Of a DNA stretch of 46,850 nucleotides, positions 5,262 to 43,967 are shown in pieces (within the stretch, counting starts at the first letter, position 1; every line of letters begins with the position of its first letter). This DNA comes from Parcubacteria group bacterium GW2011_GWB1_40_14. GTDB lineage: Bacteria > Patescibacteriota > Minisyncoccia > Terrybacterales > GWB1-40-14. Below the pieces are notes generated by a model. That model ran no database searches. It saw only the letters and a list, made by a program, of their open reading frames with translations, and was not told where the DNA came from. The stretch lies in the NCBI GenBank assembly GCA_000996085.1, contig LBYG01000014.1, positions 1 to 46,850 on the forward strand, in the 5' to 3' direction. A program made the position numbers and the translations under genes.

Positions 5262-6616
5262 ATTGTACTGGAGAGTCTTCAATAAGATTTATTTGTTCTT
5301 GTATCAATCCGGTCAGAGCCATAATATCGTCTGCATAAAAAGAATAAATAGGATTGTCCCAATTACTGCCTGCAAAATATATCATTGCGGCTTTCCATTC
5401 CGCCTTCGCCAAGGCTTCAGCGGACAGACAAGTCTGTAGATTGTGTTGCGCCTCCCGCTCCAAGTTTTAAGGCCGAAGCAGTAAACGCGTCTTCTAAATT
5501 CCATGGTGACGGAGGATTGTGCCCTGTGGCTTCCGCCACCTTGTCCTTCCAACCCAACCACGTCCTTGGCAAAAATTGCGCAGGGCCCATAGCTCCTCCC
5601 CATCCATATGAAGGTTTACGGGAAACCGGAGTACTATCTGGATCCAAGCCAAGCTCATAACATATTTCAAAAAAAGCGGCCTGATCGCGAGGATGCATAT
5701 CATCGCGCCAATTTCCAGTTCCAACAGAAGCGCCCCAATGTGATTCTTTCTTGAGCACAGCAAGTAAAAATGCGGGGCGGATATTGGCATACGAAGAAGT
5801 TTTTTTGGCTAAAGCTAAAGCGTCTTCAAAGGGCATTGAAACCCCGGATCCTTCAAGAAGAAATATTTGTTGCCGCAATACGGCGGCATCTTGTTTTGCC
5901 TTGGCTAACTGATCGTTAAATAGTTTTTCTCTACCCTTAGTCTGTGCAAATAAATCAACTTTGGCTTGCTTCTTTTCTTCAAGGCCGGCTTGCTGAATTG
6001 CCGCCAAGGTCTGTAATCCGATGAGTTCTTCTTTTTGTGCTTCGAGAACTTCTTTCTCTTTATCTAAAGAGGATTTAATATCTTTAACCTCAGCTATGCG
6101 CTCATGCACTGCTTTTTCAACAGATTCAATATTGGTTATTTTCCCGAAAACATCCGAAAAATTATCTGCAGTAAGAATAATTTCAAGAATAGATTCTTTA
6201 TCGTTATGATCAACGGTCAAAATGGTTTCTGCCAGAGCGTTGCGCGATTCCTGCAATTTTTTCTCGTAAACCTCTATTTCTTTTTCTTTTTCACCTATCG
6301 CCTGATGATTTTTATCTATTTCAATTTTAATGCGCTTAACTTCAAGTTCAACCTTACGTATTTGAGCGTCAAATAATTTTACTTCACGCGCTAAAGTGCG
6401 TTGTTGATTTTTTAAACCGTCGATATCCGCAACGAGTGCTGCAATTTCCTGCTCTATACCGCGCAAACTGTTATCTATTTCCTGTTTCATCTCGCTAATT
6501 GACATGGAGTAAACCGGCGCAATCAGAAGAAATGAAAATAAAACCAATAAAACTCCGCGCAAAACTATGCGTGGAGTTTTTTTATTAAATCCCAATATCG
6601 ATAAAAATTTATTCAT
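5260..6616 (-). pseudogene. Coiled-coil plus lytic-transglycosylase-like protein, frameshifted near 5423-5430
   Basis: ORF 5417-6616 (LLAVLKKESHWG, GGAMGPAQFLPRTWLGW) continues in another frame as ORF 5260-5463 (AEALAKAEWKAAMIYFAGSNWDNPIYSFYADDIM). Confidence 0.75.
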
Positions 6617-6619
6617 TTA

Positions 6620-6770
6620 TATTCCAGGTAGTAGAAATTTGACCAAATATAAATACCGTATTTCTATAATCTAAGAATATCATAATTAAGTTTTAACTAT
6701 ACAATACCTTACTAGTTTCGAACTTCGTTCTGCTAAAGCAAAACAGTCAAATTTTCACTACCTGGTATTG
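6620..6770 (-). repeat. Family A element, copy A1
   Basis: Minus strand AATA-CCAGGTAGTGAAAATTTGAC...GTCAAATTTCTACTACCTGG-AATA. Confidence 0.85.
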
Positions 6771-11135: not shown

Positions 11136-12131
11136 TTAATGTAAATTCTTTTTAGTTATCTTTAATTTGCCCCATCTTGCAGAGCTTTGACCCTTCTTAA
11201 GTATTCCCGGATGGGCTCCTATATATTCTATCACCGAAGTAGCATTCGCGCTCGCAAAGGCAATCGCCTTCTCTACATTACCTTTATTTCTATGCATTTC
11301 TGTGACAAAACCTGAACCAAAAGCATCGCCGGCACCTGTTCTATCCGCCATTTTTCTTTCTTTTAAAACACCGGCGTGATAACGAGTTTTGCCGTCCGAA
11401 ACCGAAACTCCATTAGGGCCGTCGGTCATAACAACCCATCCCTTGACCCAATTATCTAATTTTGAAAAAATTGCATCTGTTTTCTTGTATGGAATATTCA
11501 CAAAATACGATGCTTCTTCTTTGTTCAGAATAAGAATATCTACATGCTTCAATAAGGATCTCATCATTGCTGGCGTTGAAAGCTGAGAAGAACCAGGATT
11601 TGTCGCAACTTTAATCCCGCGTTTTGCCGCAAAGTTAATTAGTTTTGGGTAAAGAGGCGCGCAATGTCCGGCCAGATGAGTTATATAAAACCATTTTGCT
11701 TTTGCCAGCTTATTCCATGAAATATCAGTAGAAGAAATAAATTCTCCTGCGCCTCGATAAGCCAAAATAGATCTCTCACCGGACGGAGTCAAAAATATTG
11801 AAGAATAGGCGGTTAATTTTTGAGAGTCAAATTGCAAATAAGACGTATCTAACTTTTCCTTAATCAATATTTTTTTAGTTTCACTTGCCCGCACATCTTC
11901 TCCGAGACGACCTATACAACCGGAACTAAATCCTTGTCTCGCAAAGGTTACAGCCGCGTTTGAGGCAGATCCTCCCACAGTATAAAAAATGTTATCAATA
12001 TCTATTTTTGATCCCAGAGGTACGCATTCGGCAGCTCCGGTCTTAAACCGTTTGGAATGAACGGTTCTAATGTCTTTGCTTTGCATAAAAACATCGCGGG
12101 TTATTGAACCTATAGAAATAAAATCTGTCAT
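11136..12131 (-). CDS. PfkB-family carbohydrate kinase
   Basis: GGSASNAAVTFARQG, DRTGAGDAFGSGFV. Confidence 0.92.
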   Translation of the reverse strand: MTDFISIGSITRDVFMQSKDIRTVHSKRFKTGAAECVPLGSKIDIDNIFYTVGGSASNAAVTFARQGFSSGCIGRLGEDVRASETKKILIKEKLDTSYLQFDSQKLTAYSSIFLTPSGERSILAYRGAGEFISSTDISWNKLAKAKWFYITHLAGHCAPLYPKLINFAAKRGIKVATNPGSSQLSTPAMMRSLLKHVDILILNKEEASYFVNIPYKKTDAIFSKLDNWVKGWVVMTDGPNGVSVSDGKTRYHAGVLKERKMADRTGAGDAFGSGFVTEMHRNKGNVEKAIAFASANATSVIEYIGAHPGILKKGQSSARWGKLKITKKNLH

Positions 12132-12280
12132 ACCAGGTAGTAGAAATTCGACTCTTTTTATTAAAATTATCGAATTCCTTAATTAAGTCTTAATTATTAA
12201 GAATAATCTTTTTTGCCAAATTAATGATTATCCGTTTGTTCTGCCTGCGGCAGAACAGTCGAATTTTCACTACCTGGCAT
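12129..12280 (-). repeat. Family A element, copy A2, fused to the PfkB start codon
   Basis: TATG-CCAGGTAGTGAAAATTCGAC...GTCGAATTTCTACTACCTGG-TATG (minus strand). Confidence 0.9.
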
Positions 12281-12285
12281 AAATA

Positions 12286-18868: not shown

Positions 18869-19516
18869 CTAAACAATTTTACTTATAAGGGCTCCTATTG
18901 CATAGGCGGAAGCTGCAGAAATAAAACCTATGAGCAGCATTTCTATGCCTGAAATTATGAAATTCTTTTTGGTAACAATACCGCTGAAAGCTCCCACCGA
19001 AAAAATAGCCATACCGGTCAATACAGAGGTTATTAAAAATTTATTTTCTATGGTCCAAAAAGGAAGATAGGCCAAAAGCGGCAAAATGCCAAATATCAAA
19101 AAAGATACAAAGGTTACCGTAGCACTTCGGAACGGCTTAAATGTATCTTCATGACTTAAACCGAGTTCATCTTTCATCATCACATCTACCCACCTTTTTT
19201 TATCCGAAGTTATTACCGTAACAACGCGTTCAAGATCCTGTCCTTCAAAACCCCTATCCCTGTATATCTGCCTTATTTCTTCTGTTTCTTCTTCGGGTTT
19301 ATTTTCAACCTCCCACTCTTCACGTTTGCGTTCACTTTTAACAAAATCCAACTCGGATTTTGTACCAAGATAATTTCCCATAGCCATAGAAATGCCGTCA
19401 GCAATGATATTTGCCATGCCGATAATAATTACAATGGTTGGAGAAAGACTGGCTCCTGTAACGCAGCGACCATGGCCTTCGCCTACTTTTTTACCCAAAA
19501 TTTTATCGATTAGCAT
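18869..19516 (-). CDS. VIT/CCC1-family transporter-like protein
   Basis: MANIIADGISMAMGNYLGTKSE and C-terminal TM segments. Confidence 0.85.
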   Translation of the reverse strand: MLIDKILGKKVGEGHGRCVTGASLSPTIVIIIGMANIIADGISMAMGNYLGTKSELDFVKSERKREEWEVENKPEEETEEIRQIYRDRGFEGQDLERVVTVITSDKKRWVDVMMKDELGLSHEDTFKPFRSATVTFVSFLIFGILPLLAYLPFWTIENKFLITSVLTGMAIFSVGAFSGIVTKKNFIISGIEMLLIGFISAASAYAIGALISKIV

Positions 19517-19650
19517 ACCGGGTAGTAGAAATTCGACTATTTATTAAACAATCTATGAATTTCTAATTAATAATAAATAACTTAACTTTATAACTTGATC
19601 GGATAGATTTGTTCGCTTAAGCGAACGGTCGAATTTTCACTACCCGGCAT
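19514..19650 (-). repeat. Family A element, copy A3, fused to the VIT start codon
   Basis: TATG-CCGGGTAGTGAAAATTCGAC...GTCGAATTTCTACTACCCGG-TATG; both arms carry the compensatory A-T to G-C change. Confidence 0.9.
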
Positions 19651-20902
19651 ATTCTTCCAAGGCTTTTAAACTATCTGTTAATTCCAAATAATTCTTTATT
19701 TCGTTTTTATTCTTAATTAATTCACCAATTATCTTCCGGTCTTTTGATCTGTTAATTATAGTAGCGCCAACCAAAAGATTATCCCTGAAAAAGAATTGTT
19801 CACGCCAGCCTGTACCTCCGCCTAACGATTCGTTTTCTCCGCGGGAAACGGTAATCGTGTCTTTATCTGCCGATGTGTCTCCCATAAATATTATATTTAT
19901 TCCGAAATATACTCCGCTGTAACTTGAAATAAAATCTATTGAACTTTTTTCTCCGAACATGTTTTGTCCCGCAATCTTGCCGTGAAAAAGCGCGTTCGTC
20001 CAGCTACCGATACTAAGATGTTTACCGAACGAAGGTTGAAAAGAATTCGCTACGTCTCCGCCCGCATAAATATCCTTAACTGAAGTTTCAAGACGTTCAT
20101 TTGTTTCTATACCTTTGGTTATTTTTAAACCGCTACCGGCAAAAAAATCGCTGTTCAGATCCAATCCCAGGCCCAAACCCACAGAAGAACACTCCAAAAT
20201 TTCTCCGCTATTTAATTTTACTCCTTCAACCGTATCTGTACCTAATATTTCGGTAATATAAGAATTATTGATTATTTTAAACCCATTATTTTCAATAAAT
20301 GAACTCAATAAATTTGCTGAATCCGCGTCCAGCCTGTCGCCCATATAATATGGACGGCGTATTACTACATAACCACCTATGCCGCAGGCCGCAAAAGAAG
20401 AAGCAAACTCCAGACCGATAAATCCCCCGCCCCAGATAACAATTTTTTGTTTTTCTTGAGGTAATTCTTTGATTTGCTTTATAGTTTCAATTATATCATC
20501 TGCGTCAAATATTGTACGGAAAAAATGGATGTTTTTTAGATCAATTCCGGGAATTGAGGGTTTTGCTATATGACCGCCCGAAGCCAAAAGCAATTTTCCG
20601 TATTCTATTTCTTCTCCACTTGTCAGATAAATTTTATTCTCGTCTGAAACCAATTTTACGGCAGTTTCACCACCAAAAAAAACTATATTGTTCTTCCTAT
20701 AGAATGCTTCGTCTCTGAGAAAAAGTGCCTCGCGAGATATCTTGCCTTCAATATAATTAGGTAATAAAACCCGCGAATAAAGCGGGTTATTTTCCTGATC
20801 AACAATTGCGATGCTTGCTTCAGCGTCTTTCCCCCTTAAAGTTTCTGCGGCAGTTACGCCGCAGATCCCGTTGCCTATAATTAAATAATCGAACTTTTGC
20901 AT
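19640..20902 (-). CDS. FAD-dependent NAD(P)H oxidoreductase (rubredoxin/nitrite reductase-like)
   Basis: YLIIGNGICGVTAAETLRG; IWGGGFIGLEFASSFAACG; YAGGDVANSF; final codons and stop lie in A3. Confidence 0.88.
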   Translation of the reverse strand: MQKFDYLIIGNGICGVTAAETLRGKDAEASIAIVDQENNPLYSRVLLPNYIEGKISREALFLRDEAFYRKNNIVFFGGETAVKLVSDENKIYLTSGEEIEYGKLLLASGGHIAKPSIPGIDLKNIHFFRTIFDADDIIETIKQIKELPQEKQKIVIWGGGFIGLEFASSFAACGIGGYVVIRRPYYMGDRLDADSANLLSSFIENNGFKIINNSYITEILGTDTVEGVKLNSGEILECSSVGLGLGLDLNSDFFAGSGLKITKGIETNERLETSVKDIYAGGDVANSFQPSFGKHLSIGSWTNALFHGKIAGQNMFGEKSSIDFISSYSGVYFGINIIFMGDTSADKDTITVSRGENESLGGGTGWREQFFFRDNLLVGATIINRSKDRKIIGELIKNKNEIKNYLELTDSLKALEEYAG

Positions 20903-24152: not shown

Positions 24153-24386
24153 TTAAGGATAAATCTGATTTCCATCTTCGTCGAATACTTTAATAGCTTT
24201 TGTAGGACAAGATTGCGCGGCCATTAAAATAGTTGCGTCGTCCGCACCTTTTGGATTAGTTACCACAGCTTTATTCTCACCATCCAATTCAAAAACATCG
24301 CCGGCAAGAGCTATGCAAGTTGCCGCGCCAATACACAATTCTCGGTCAACTTCTATTCGTCCTATTTTTTTCTTTTGTTCAGCCAT
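24153..24386 (-). CDS. Ferredoxin, single Fe-S cluster
   Basis: RIEVDRELCIGAATCIALAGDVFELD...AAQSCPTKAIKVFDEDG. Confidence 0.9.
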   Translation of the reverse strand: MAEQKKKIGRIEVDRELCIGAATCIALAGDVFELDGENKAVVTNPKGADDATILMAAQSCPTKAIKVFDEDGNQIYP

Positions 24387-24520
24387 ACCAGGTAGTAGAA
24401 ATTCGACTATTTATCAAATAATTAAAGAATTTCTTGTTAAGAATAAATAATGTGATTTTATAGCTTGACCAGATAGACTTGTTCGCTTAAGCGAACGGTC
24501 GAATTTTCACTACCTGGCAT
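24384..24520 (-). repeat. Family A element, copy A4, fused to the ferredoxin start codon
   Basis: TATG-CCAGGTAGTGAAAATTCGACCGTTCGCTTAAGCGAAC...CTACTACCTGG-TATG. Confidence 0.9.
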
Positions 24521-24524
24521 ATAT

Positions 24525-43409: not shown

Positions 43410-43499
43410 AAGTTATACATATTATAGTACTAATACTTAAATATTCGAAATCGCCTTATCCACATATGATAAAAAATATACTTATGCGATAATACGATT

Positions 43500-43637
43500 A
43501 TGCCAGGTAGTGAAAATTCAACCGTTCGCGCAGCGAACAAAATGCCTGGTCAACTTTTATAATAATAATTCGTAATTTTTAATATAGAAATTTCTTAATT
43601 TATTACCTAAAAAGTCGAATTTCTACTACCTGGTATG
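43500..43637 (+). repeat. Family A element, copy A5, fused to the start codon of 43635-43967
   Basis: TATG-CCAGGTAGTGAAAATTCAACCGTTCGCGCAGCGAAC...GTCGAATTTCTACTACCTGG-TATG. Confidence 0.9.
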
Positions 43638-43967
43638 ATTAAAATTGACGATGTAAAATTGAATCTTCTTGAGCCAAAAGAACACCCGGAAAGAAATAAA
43701 AATTTTATGCTAGTTTTTGCTTCGGACAATAAAAATATTTGCATGGCTTTTAACTGGGCCATAGAATCTATCTTAAAACGAGAAGGTTTGTCTCCGTACC
43801 ATCACACTGAAAAAGAACTGGTTAAACAGCACGAGCCGGGACTTCACGAGTGGGAAATACGCGAAGAAGGACGCAAAGAACACCTGGAAAAATTAGTTGC
43901 GGAGATTGAAGAACGCGCAAAAGAAACCGCAGATATATTTGATCATTTTGGTGCCGAAATAGAATAG
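43635..43967 (+). CDS. Hypothetical 110-aa protein
   Basis: ORF starts at the A5 boundary ATG; terminator-like GGGTTTT context downstream. Confidence 0.6.
   Translation: MIKIDDVKLNLLEPKEHPERNKNFMLVFASDNKNICMAFNWAIESILKREGLSPYHHTEKELVKQHEPGLHEWEIREEGRKEHLEKLVAEIEERAKETADIFDHFGAEIE

Follow-up and report, generated by a model that had tools for sequence, protein, structure and literature searches.

Short palindrome-ended repeats at duplicated start codons in a Patescibacteria genome: likely non-autonomous relatives of a GIY-YIG nuclease-encoding mobile element

In the genome of Parcubacteria group bacterium GW2011_GWB1_40_14, several unrelated genes begin immediately behind copies of one short repeat, and the start codon found at one end of the repeat recurs at the other. 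This raises the question of what the repeat is and how a gene can live with it on its start codon. Five copies lie in the window, i.e., the whole stretch of 46,850 nucleotides that was analyzed. An earlier note, made without database searches, had described them as elements of 140-150 bp between 4-bp direct repeats (TATG at four copies, AATA at one), with the right-hand ATG serving as the start codon of a PfkB kinase, a VIT protein, a ferredoxin, and a hypothetical gene. All five copies and their flanks were confirmed, as were the four start codons at the TATG copies; exact boundaries corrected the length to 130-145 bp. Copy A2 (12133..12277, 145 bp, minus strand) abuts the ATG of the PfkB-family kinase gene (11136-12131; PF00294). 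Its duplication consists of a right TATG (12129..12132, minus strand), which contains the PfkB start codon, and a left TATG (12278..12281, minus strand), a captured start codon that opens a leader ORF of 19 codons; the left arm CCAGGTAGTGAAAATTCGAC (12258..12277, minus strand) and the right arm GTCGAATTTCTACTACCTGG (12133..12152, minus strand) contain covarying pairs. Copies A3 (19518..19647, 130 bp, minus strand; TATG at 19514-19517 and 19648-19651) and A4 (24388..24517, 130 bp, minus strand; TATG at 24384-24387 and 24518-24521) abut the ATG of a VIT-family gene (18869-19516; VIT1, PF01988) and of a ferredoxin gene (24153-24386; PF13370), respectively. Within A3, the nested hairpin P2 GTTCGCTTAAGCGAAC (19611..19626, minus strand) shows covariation across copies. 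Copy A5 (43503..43633, 131 bp, plus strand; TATG at 43499-43502 and 43634-43637) abuts the ATG of a hypothetical gene (43635-43967), whose 110-aa product had no match in a Pfam search. Copy A1 (6624..6765, 142 bp, minus strand; AATA at 6620-6623 and 6766-6769) does not sit on an ATG and lies 7 bp upstream of that of a 399-aa ORF (5417-6616). An Rfam scan of the window returned rRNA and tRNA only, with no intron core and no known leader family at the element.

The element is abundant in the source genome, a Patescibacteria assembly of 944,541 bases (0.94 Mb) in 38 contigs. The arm pattern gave 98 matches (47 on the plus and 51 on the minus strand) against 0 for the reversed control pattern, far above chance. 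Fifty-eight copies were resolved end to end, mostly 126-145 bp long with shorter ones of 68, 72, and 109 bp and one of 306 bp, and several more partial copies are present. Two identical left halves without a right arm were seen 673 bp apart (L035:4776-4900 and 5449-5570), each followed directly by a different coding sequence, the right end having apparently been deleted or replaced. A lone right arm precedes a start codon at L033:5045-5068, where the stop codon TAG of the upstream gene overlaps the arm.

The flanks of the resolved copies speak for insertion. Matched 4-bp flanks were found at 46 of the 58, namely TATG at 38 and another tetramer at one copy each for the remaining eight (AATA, TGTG, CTTG, TAAG, CATG, CACG, AATG, and TCCG); all except AATA end in G. 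These eight mark the repeats as true target-site duplications, which a conserved leader would not give. Forty-six copies abut the ATG of an ORF of 30 aa or more, every one of them in sense orientation, and no element reversed on a start codon was found in the source genome. About 12 of the 58 lie away from start codons, and even in copies away from genes the orientation relative to NNNG is constant. Among the copies with TATG at both sides, 37 of 38 are on a start codon, compared with at most 42% of non-genic TATG sites (binomial 3e-13). The background for this comparison was 302 kb around the copies, with non-genic TATG sites divided into 152 called starts, 156 ambiguous sites, and 422 non-starts; gene calls were simple longest-ATG ORFs, so that the enrichment is approximate. 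Host genes are functionally unrelated and include what we take to be pgk, rpmJ, rpmC, serS, ftsA, mraZ, and a phosphoglycerate mutase gene, their N-termini having been recognized by eye without a search. This genome-wide tabulation of flanking 4-mers and distances to start codons did not show the random pattern that would have refuted the earlier reading, and the constant orientation to the gene claimed for the window holds for all start-codon copies.

Comparison with relatives shows that the element is mobile. In a genome of the same genus, about half of which was covered, it is missing at 17 of 18 orthologs, with the start codon retained, and common to one. A covariance model search found copies in 7 of 54 other genomes, patchily spread over families of the class, and all named matches belong to Patescibacteria (Portnoybacteria, Yanofskybacteria, Liptonbacteria, Nealsonbacteria, and others). 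The left flanks of long copies in other genomes were TATG (24), CATG (8), AATG (5), GATG (2), and some others. One 71-bp copy in Portnoybacteria is nested in the left arm of another copy, and the resulting composite recurs at several start codons, in one case together with an intact GIY-YIG frame. Elements with different arm sequences, the same plan, and the same TATG flanks are present in other genomes of the class. The proposal that these are small, non-autonomous mobile elements which duplicate 4 bp of their target at start codons is thus supported by matched non-TATG flanks, empty orthologous sites, nested copies that spread again, and a fixed orientation to the gene; the alternative offered by the earlier note, that the element is retained for driving translation, was not shown. 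A different palindromic repeat (GACTCGAGGAGATGCA.. / ..CACATG) was observed upstream of two gene starts in genome G001 (L083, L091), ending exactly before the ATG of orthologs whose source-genome versions carry the element.

An autonomous partner, which the earlier note had not found, is suggested by the full-length copies. The 306-bp copy of the source genome (C38) holds an intact ORF for an 86-aa GIY-YIG protein between the same arms, and five further copies of 311-325 bp in other Patescibacteria genomes hold one as well. These ORFs (86-101 aa) fill the space between the arms. Every copy above 300 bp with these arms, in the source genome and 76 named stretches, contains a GIY-YIG ORF and nothing else; no DDE or HUH Y1 transposase was found between them. 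The proteins belong to the GIY-YIG nuclease family PF01541 (E 1.4e-15 to 1.6e-17, with invariant catalytic residues Y6, Y17, G19, R27, H31, and E63), from which DNA cleavage is inferred. Their closest solved structures are 1zg2 and 1ywl (UPF0213), and the matches to SLX1 and TIGR01453 are weak. The pairing of arms and nuclease extends beyond this family: 56 of 78 distinct GIY-YIG loci of the class have strong inverted arms directly at the ORF, at least 26 of these 56 adjoin the ATG of an ORF of 40 aa or more, and for the arm classes of short copies in genome G020 there are GIY-YIG loci whose arms are similar (L258, L252).

At several of these loci the left, captured ATG appears to serve the nuclease. 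It is in frame with the nuclease at 19 of the 56 armed loci and, among those at start codons, at 16 of 26 vs one third by chance (p 0.003, uncorrected for kinship). Several families have a nuclease reading frame that runs uninterrupted from the captured ATG across the arm, the duplicated ATG being left to the host gene, and left arms that differ in DNA encode similar N-termini (MPSNTTSS, MPSNTTSN, MPSKTKSN, MPGRTNSN, and MPGSENST). Locus L142 (MNPVRDSKFF..) has no other ATG or GTG start ahead of the nuclease core. Loci of the ATCCCGTTAG class carry an ATGA duplication, the TGA stop of the nuclease overlapping the host ATG (L142, L144, L297). The arrangement is not general: three of six family-A nuclease copies (L043, L214, L217) are out of frame with the captured ATG and need their own start, and some families skip it, with double stops in the arm and their own ATTATG. 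Where an internal ATG is missing, GTG may take its place in several copies, so that use of their own start is not excluded. Inside the nuclease ORF of L175, L217, L226, and L043, the sequence GCGATTATGTTC surrounding the ORF's own ATG has a complement, GAACATAATCGC, some 90 nt further downstream, and L043 shows a matching change; this pairing may hide the nuclease's own start.

Paired with each other, the arms make a 20-bp stem in which one mismatch is constant (the arms have one to two conserved mismatches). At pairs 3-182 and 17-168 both partners change, and many compensatory changes across copies are seen in the nested hairpin. On the 3' side of this hairpin lies a motif, TATCTGG, that resembles the right end and is complementary to the left one (pairing score 12.3 on average; 6.1, sd 2.7, for shuffled sequences). 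From sequence alone, it is possible that the left end pairs either locally or with the right end. The long stem was predicted in silico in 45 of 45 start-codon copies, covering the last 15 nt ahead of the host ATG (probability of being unpaired 0.09, as against 0.50 for controls), and according to this model it should hinder translation unless opened. The missing Shine-Dalgarno sequence, earlier taken as a special trait of these copies, is normal here: element-free genes of the source genome lack such a signal (41/240), T precedes their ATG in about half, and -10-like motifs occur near it. The leader ORF from the left ATG spans 6-53 codons. Since its length is not conserved, leader-peptide regulation as a conserved attenuator was rejected, and the leader ORF was kept only as a possible opener of the stem. 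No -10-like motif at a consistent, proper distance from the right ATG was found that would indicate a leaderless promoter inside the element. A -10-like sequence is about equally frequent near the left TATG of target sites (17/45) and at control genes (39/119), and 18 of the 45 targets lie directly behind an upstream gene; targeting of leaderless starts through the transcription bubble was therefore rejected as a general rule. An invertible promoter was also rejected, since in the copies examined the nested hairpin is always 3' of the 5' arm in gene sense and the interior is never inverted. At L216, L226, L169, L190, and L205, mostly in Portnoybacteria, the arms are exchanged (TAG left, TGA right) and the interior keeps its orientation to the gene.

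What, then, are the copies? Mobility, target-site duplication, start-codon bias, sense orientation, and the pairing of arms with nuclease genes are shown. The explanation that most likely unites them is that the copies are non-autonomous, palindrome-ended mobile elements related to a GIY-YIG-encoding element that inserts at start codons. Full-length relatives of about 300-325 bp consist of two arms and one single-domain GIY-YIG nuclease gene. The element would enter a staggered target of 4 nt, in most cases the NATG of a gene start, so that both its ends come to carry the start codon. The left ATG would retain the original upstream signals of the gene and, in several full-length families, start the nuclease ORF through the left arm, and the right ATG would become the new host start codon, leaving the host protein unchanged. 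The GIY-YIG protein is inferred to cut DNA and mobilize the short copies in trans, perhaps, by analogy to other GIY-YIG enzymes on branched DNA, by cutting at the base of a hairpin or cruciform. Cleavage at the foot of the palindrome would agree with the activity of SLX1 and other GIY-YIG relatives on branched DNA. The start-codon bias might stem from the need for expression or from accessibility of start sites, and the 20-bp stem over the host start might be opened by ribosomes coming from the left ATG or by an RNase III cut. That the nuclease moves the element, the mode of integration, the cause of the start-codon choice, and the route of host translation are all inferred. Against this explanation, no transposition was observed, and, to our knowledge, no GIY-YIG-type enzyme has been shown to integrate DNA. 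The start-codon data also do not separate intrinsic target specificity from selection after insertion.

The rival that survives best concerns this last point, namely that insertion is broad and the start-codon bias is purely a matter of selection, because the protein is unaltered there or expression signals are supplied. It falls clearly short of an even chance. In its favor, copies away from starts exist, and arm classes differ in the duplication around the same ATG; TATG and ATGA duplications are more easily explained by retention or accessibility than by a single cutting specificity. Against it, other intergenic TATG sites would be at least as harmless, yet hold only 1 of 38 copies, and the orientation to NNNG stays constant away from genes. 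A second rival explains the tolerance of the element by removal or skipping at the RNA level: RNase III could excise it, as happens with rRNA intervening sequences, it could be spliced out, or ribosomes could bypass it from one AUG to the other. This has a lower chance again. In its favor, the 20-bp stem joins both AUGs and formed in silico in 45 of 45 copies, and CPR rRNA genes contain non-intron insertions, some encoding a GIY-YIG protein and others short (PMC11270868). However, the same stem is kept in copies away from genes, there are no RNA data, and neither ribosome bypassing nor splicing has direct support.

It is unlikely that the copies are miniature elements (MITEs) moved by a conventional transposase, DDE or HUH (REP/RAYT-like), and just happen to share genomes with GIY-YIG genes. 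Their short size, inverted ends, and 4-bp duplications would suit such an origin, and the GGTAG of the arm resembles the GTAG of REPs. Against this stand the presence of only GIY-YIG ORFs in all copies above 300 bp and the match between short-copy arm classes in G020 and GIY-YIG loci L258 and L252; HUH elements, moreover, are not known to produce target duplications. No intact DDE or HUH element with these arms was seen, although related genomes were outside any transposase-family search. The weakest rival, a non-mobile, structured 5' leader RNA of a regulon (riboswitch-like or a translation enhancer) that was duplicated or selected, has on its side two covarying helices, the alternative pairing of the inner motif with the left end, and sense orientation at all start codons, but is very improbable in view of unrelated host genes, the lack of an Rfam match, about 12 copies away from starts, nested copies, and above all the matched non-TATG duplications and empty orthologous sites, which largely refute it and leave only a regulatory role gained after insertion as a possibility.

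The GIY-YIG-related element can be compared with several known systems. CPR rRNA genes contain insertions with GIY-YIG ORFs that are neither group I nor group II introns, along with many ORF-less insertions below 200 bp (PMC11270868). The present element shares with them its occurrence in Patescibacteria, a GIY-YIG ORF in a non-intron insertion, and short ORF-less forms alongside. The rRNA insertions differ in their location in rRNA genes and in being described as sparse, with no boundary structure or mechanism given in the relevant sections of PMC11270868, whereas the present element has palindromic arms, 4-bp duplications, and start-codon sites. MITEs such as Correia elements and MITEAba12 are likewise short and non-autonomous, with inverted ends, target-site duplications, and many gene-adjacent copies. 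The criteria for a MITE are met as regards the absence of a transposase gene, 20-bp terminal inverted repeats, target-site duplication, and empty sites; that of a DDE-transposase-encoding partner with the same ends is not, the partner here being a GIY-YIG nuclease. The present element further differs in inserting on and duplicating the start codon and in arms that covary as a single stem. REP/RAYT systems (IS200-like TnpA-Y1) also have palindromic repeats bracketing a small nuclease gene; they differ in having an HUH enzyme and lack the 4-bp duplication and start-codon sites, and the IS200/IS605 and REP/RAYT criteria are unmet here (no HUH Y1 transposase, target-site duplications present). GIY-YIG homing endonucleases (I-TevI, T4 Seg/Mob) and group I intron endonucleases share the PF01541 domain, the weak TIGR01453 match, and selfish spread, but the present protein is single-domain without an added DNA-binding domain, and the element has a short target, duplications, and no intron; the intron RNA core required of a group I or II intron with a homing endonuclease was absent from the Rfam scan of the window. 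Single-domain UPF0213-type proteins are of the same size class and include the closest solved structures, and the single-strand-specific Ssn nuclease of Neisseria, also of this size class, is reported to act on repeated palindromes; neither has been shown inside a mobile element with duplications. No paper joining GIY-YIG proteins with such elements was found in the open-access literature searched, with subscription journals and preprints outside its scope, and reachable prior art is limited to the GIY-YIG-bearing non-intron insertions in CPR rRNA genes (PMC11270868).

A bolder reading makes one joint claim: that this is a new transposon class, built of an arm, a tiny GIY-YIG gene, and an arm, which inserts into start codons, captures the host promoter and ATG for its nuclease, and returns a duplicated ATG (with an ATGA stop-start overlap in one arm class), and whose short derivatives are now the 5' leaders of about 5% of genes in some Patescibacteria genomes. 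As a whole, this may as well prove wrong as right. If true, this mobile element would avoid doing harm when it inserts, since it splits and duplicates the start codon and so leaves the host protein intact, and would express its nuclease from captured host signals. This would provide a role for the very numerous small GIY-YIG genes of Patescibacteria (present in at least 57% of 286 genomes of the class) and could account mechanistically for the non-intron insertions in rRNA genes of this group, which are unexplained. It would also mean that dozens of genes, including essential ones, are under a newly gained hairpin leader, and raises the question of how short-leader genes without Shine-Dalgarno sequences are translated behind a 20-bp stem.

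Further arrangements were observed around GIY-YIG ORFs. A second arm class, CCCGTTAG..CTAACGGG, surrounds those at L141, L142, L144, L147, L256, L264, and L297, several copies having an ATGA duplication and a nuclease stop that overlaps the host start. At L146 and L149, with arm class CCCCCACACC..GGTGTGGGGG, TGTG duplications lie directly 5' of TGTGGATAA, which resembles a DnaA box. Lastly, three GIY-YIG ORFs of the source genome (L046, L047, and L049 on contigs 21, 35, and 34) are flanked on both sides by tandem copies or pieces of tRNA genes (Gln-like, Trp-like), suggesting insertion into tRNA genes with partial tRNA duplication.
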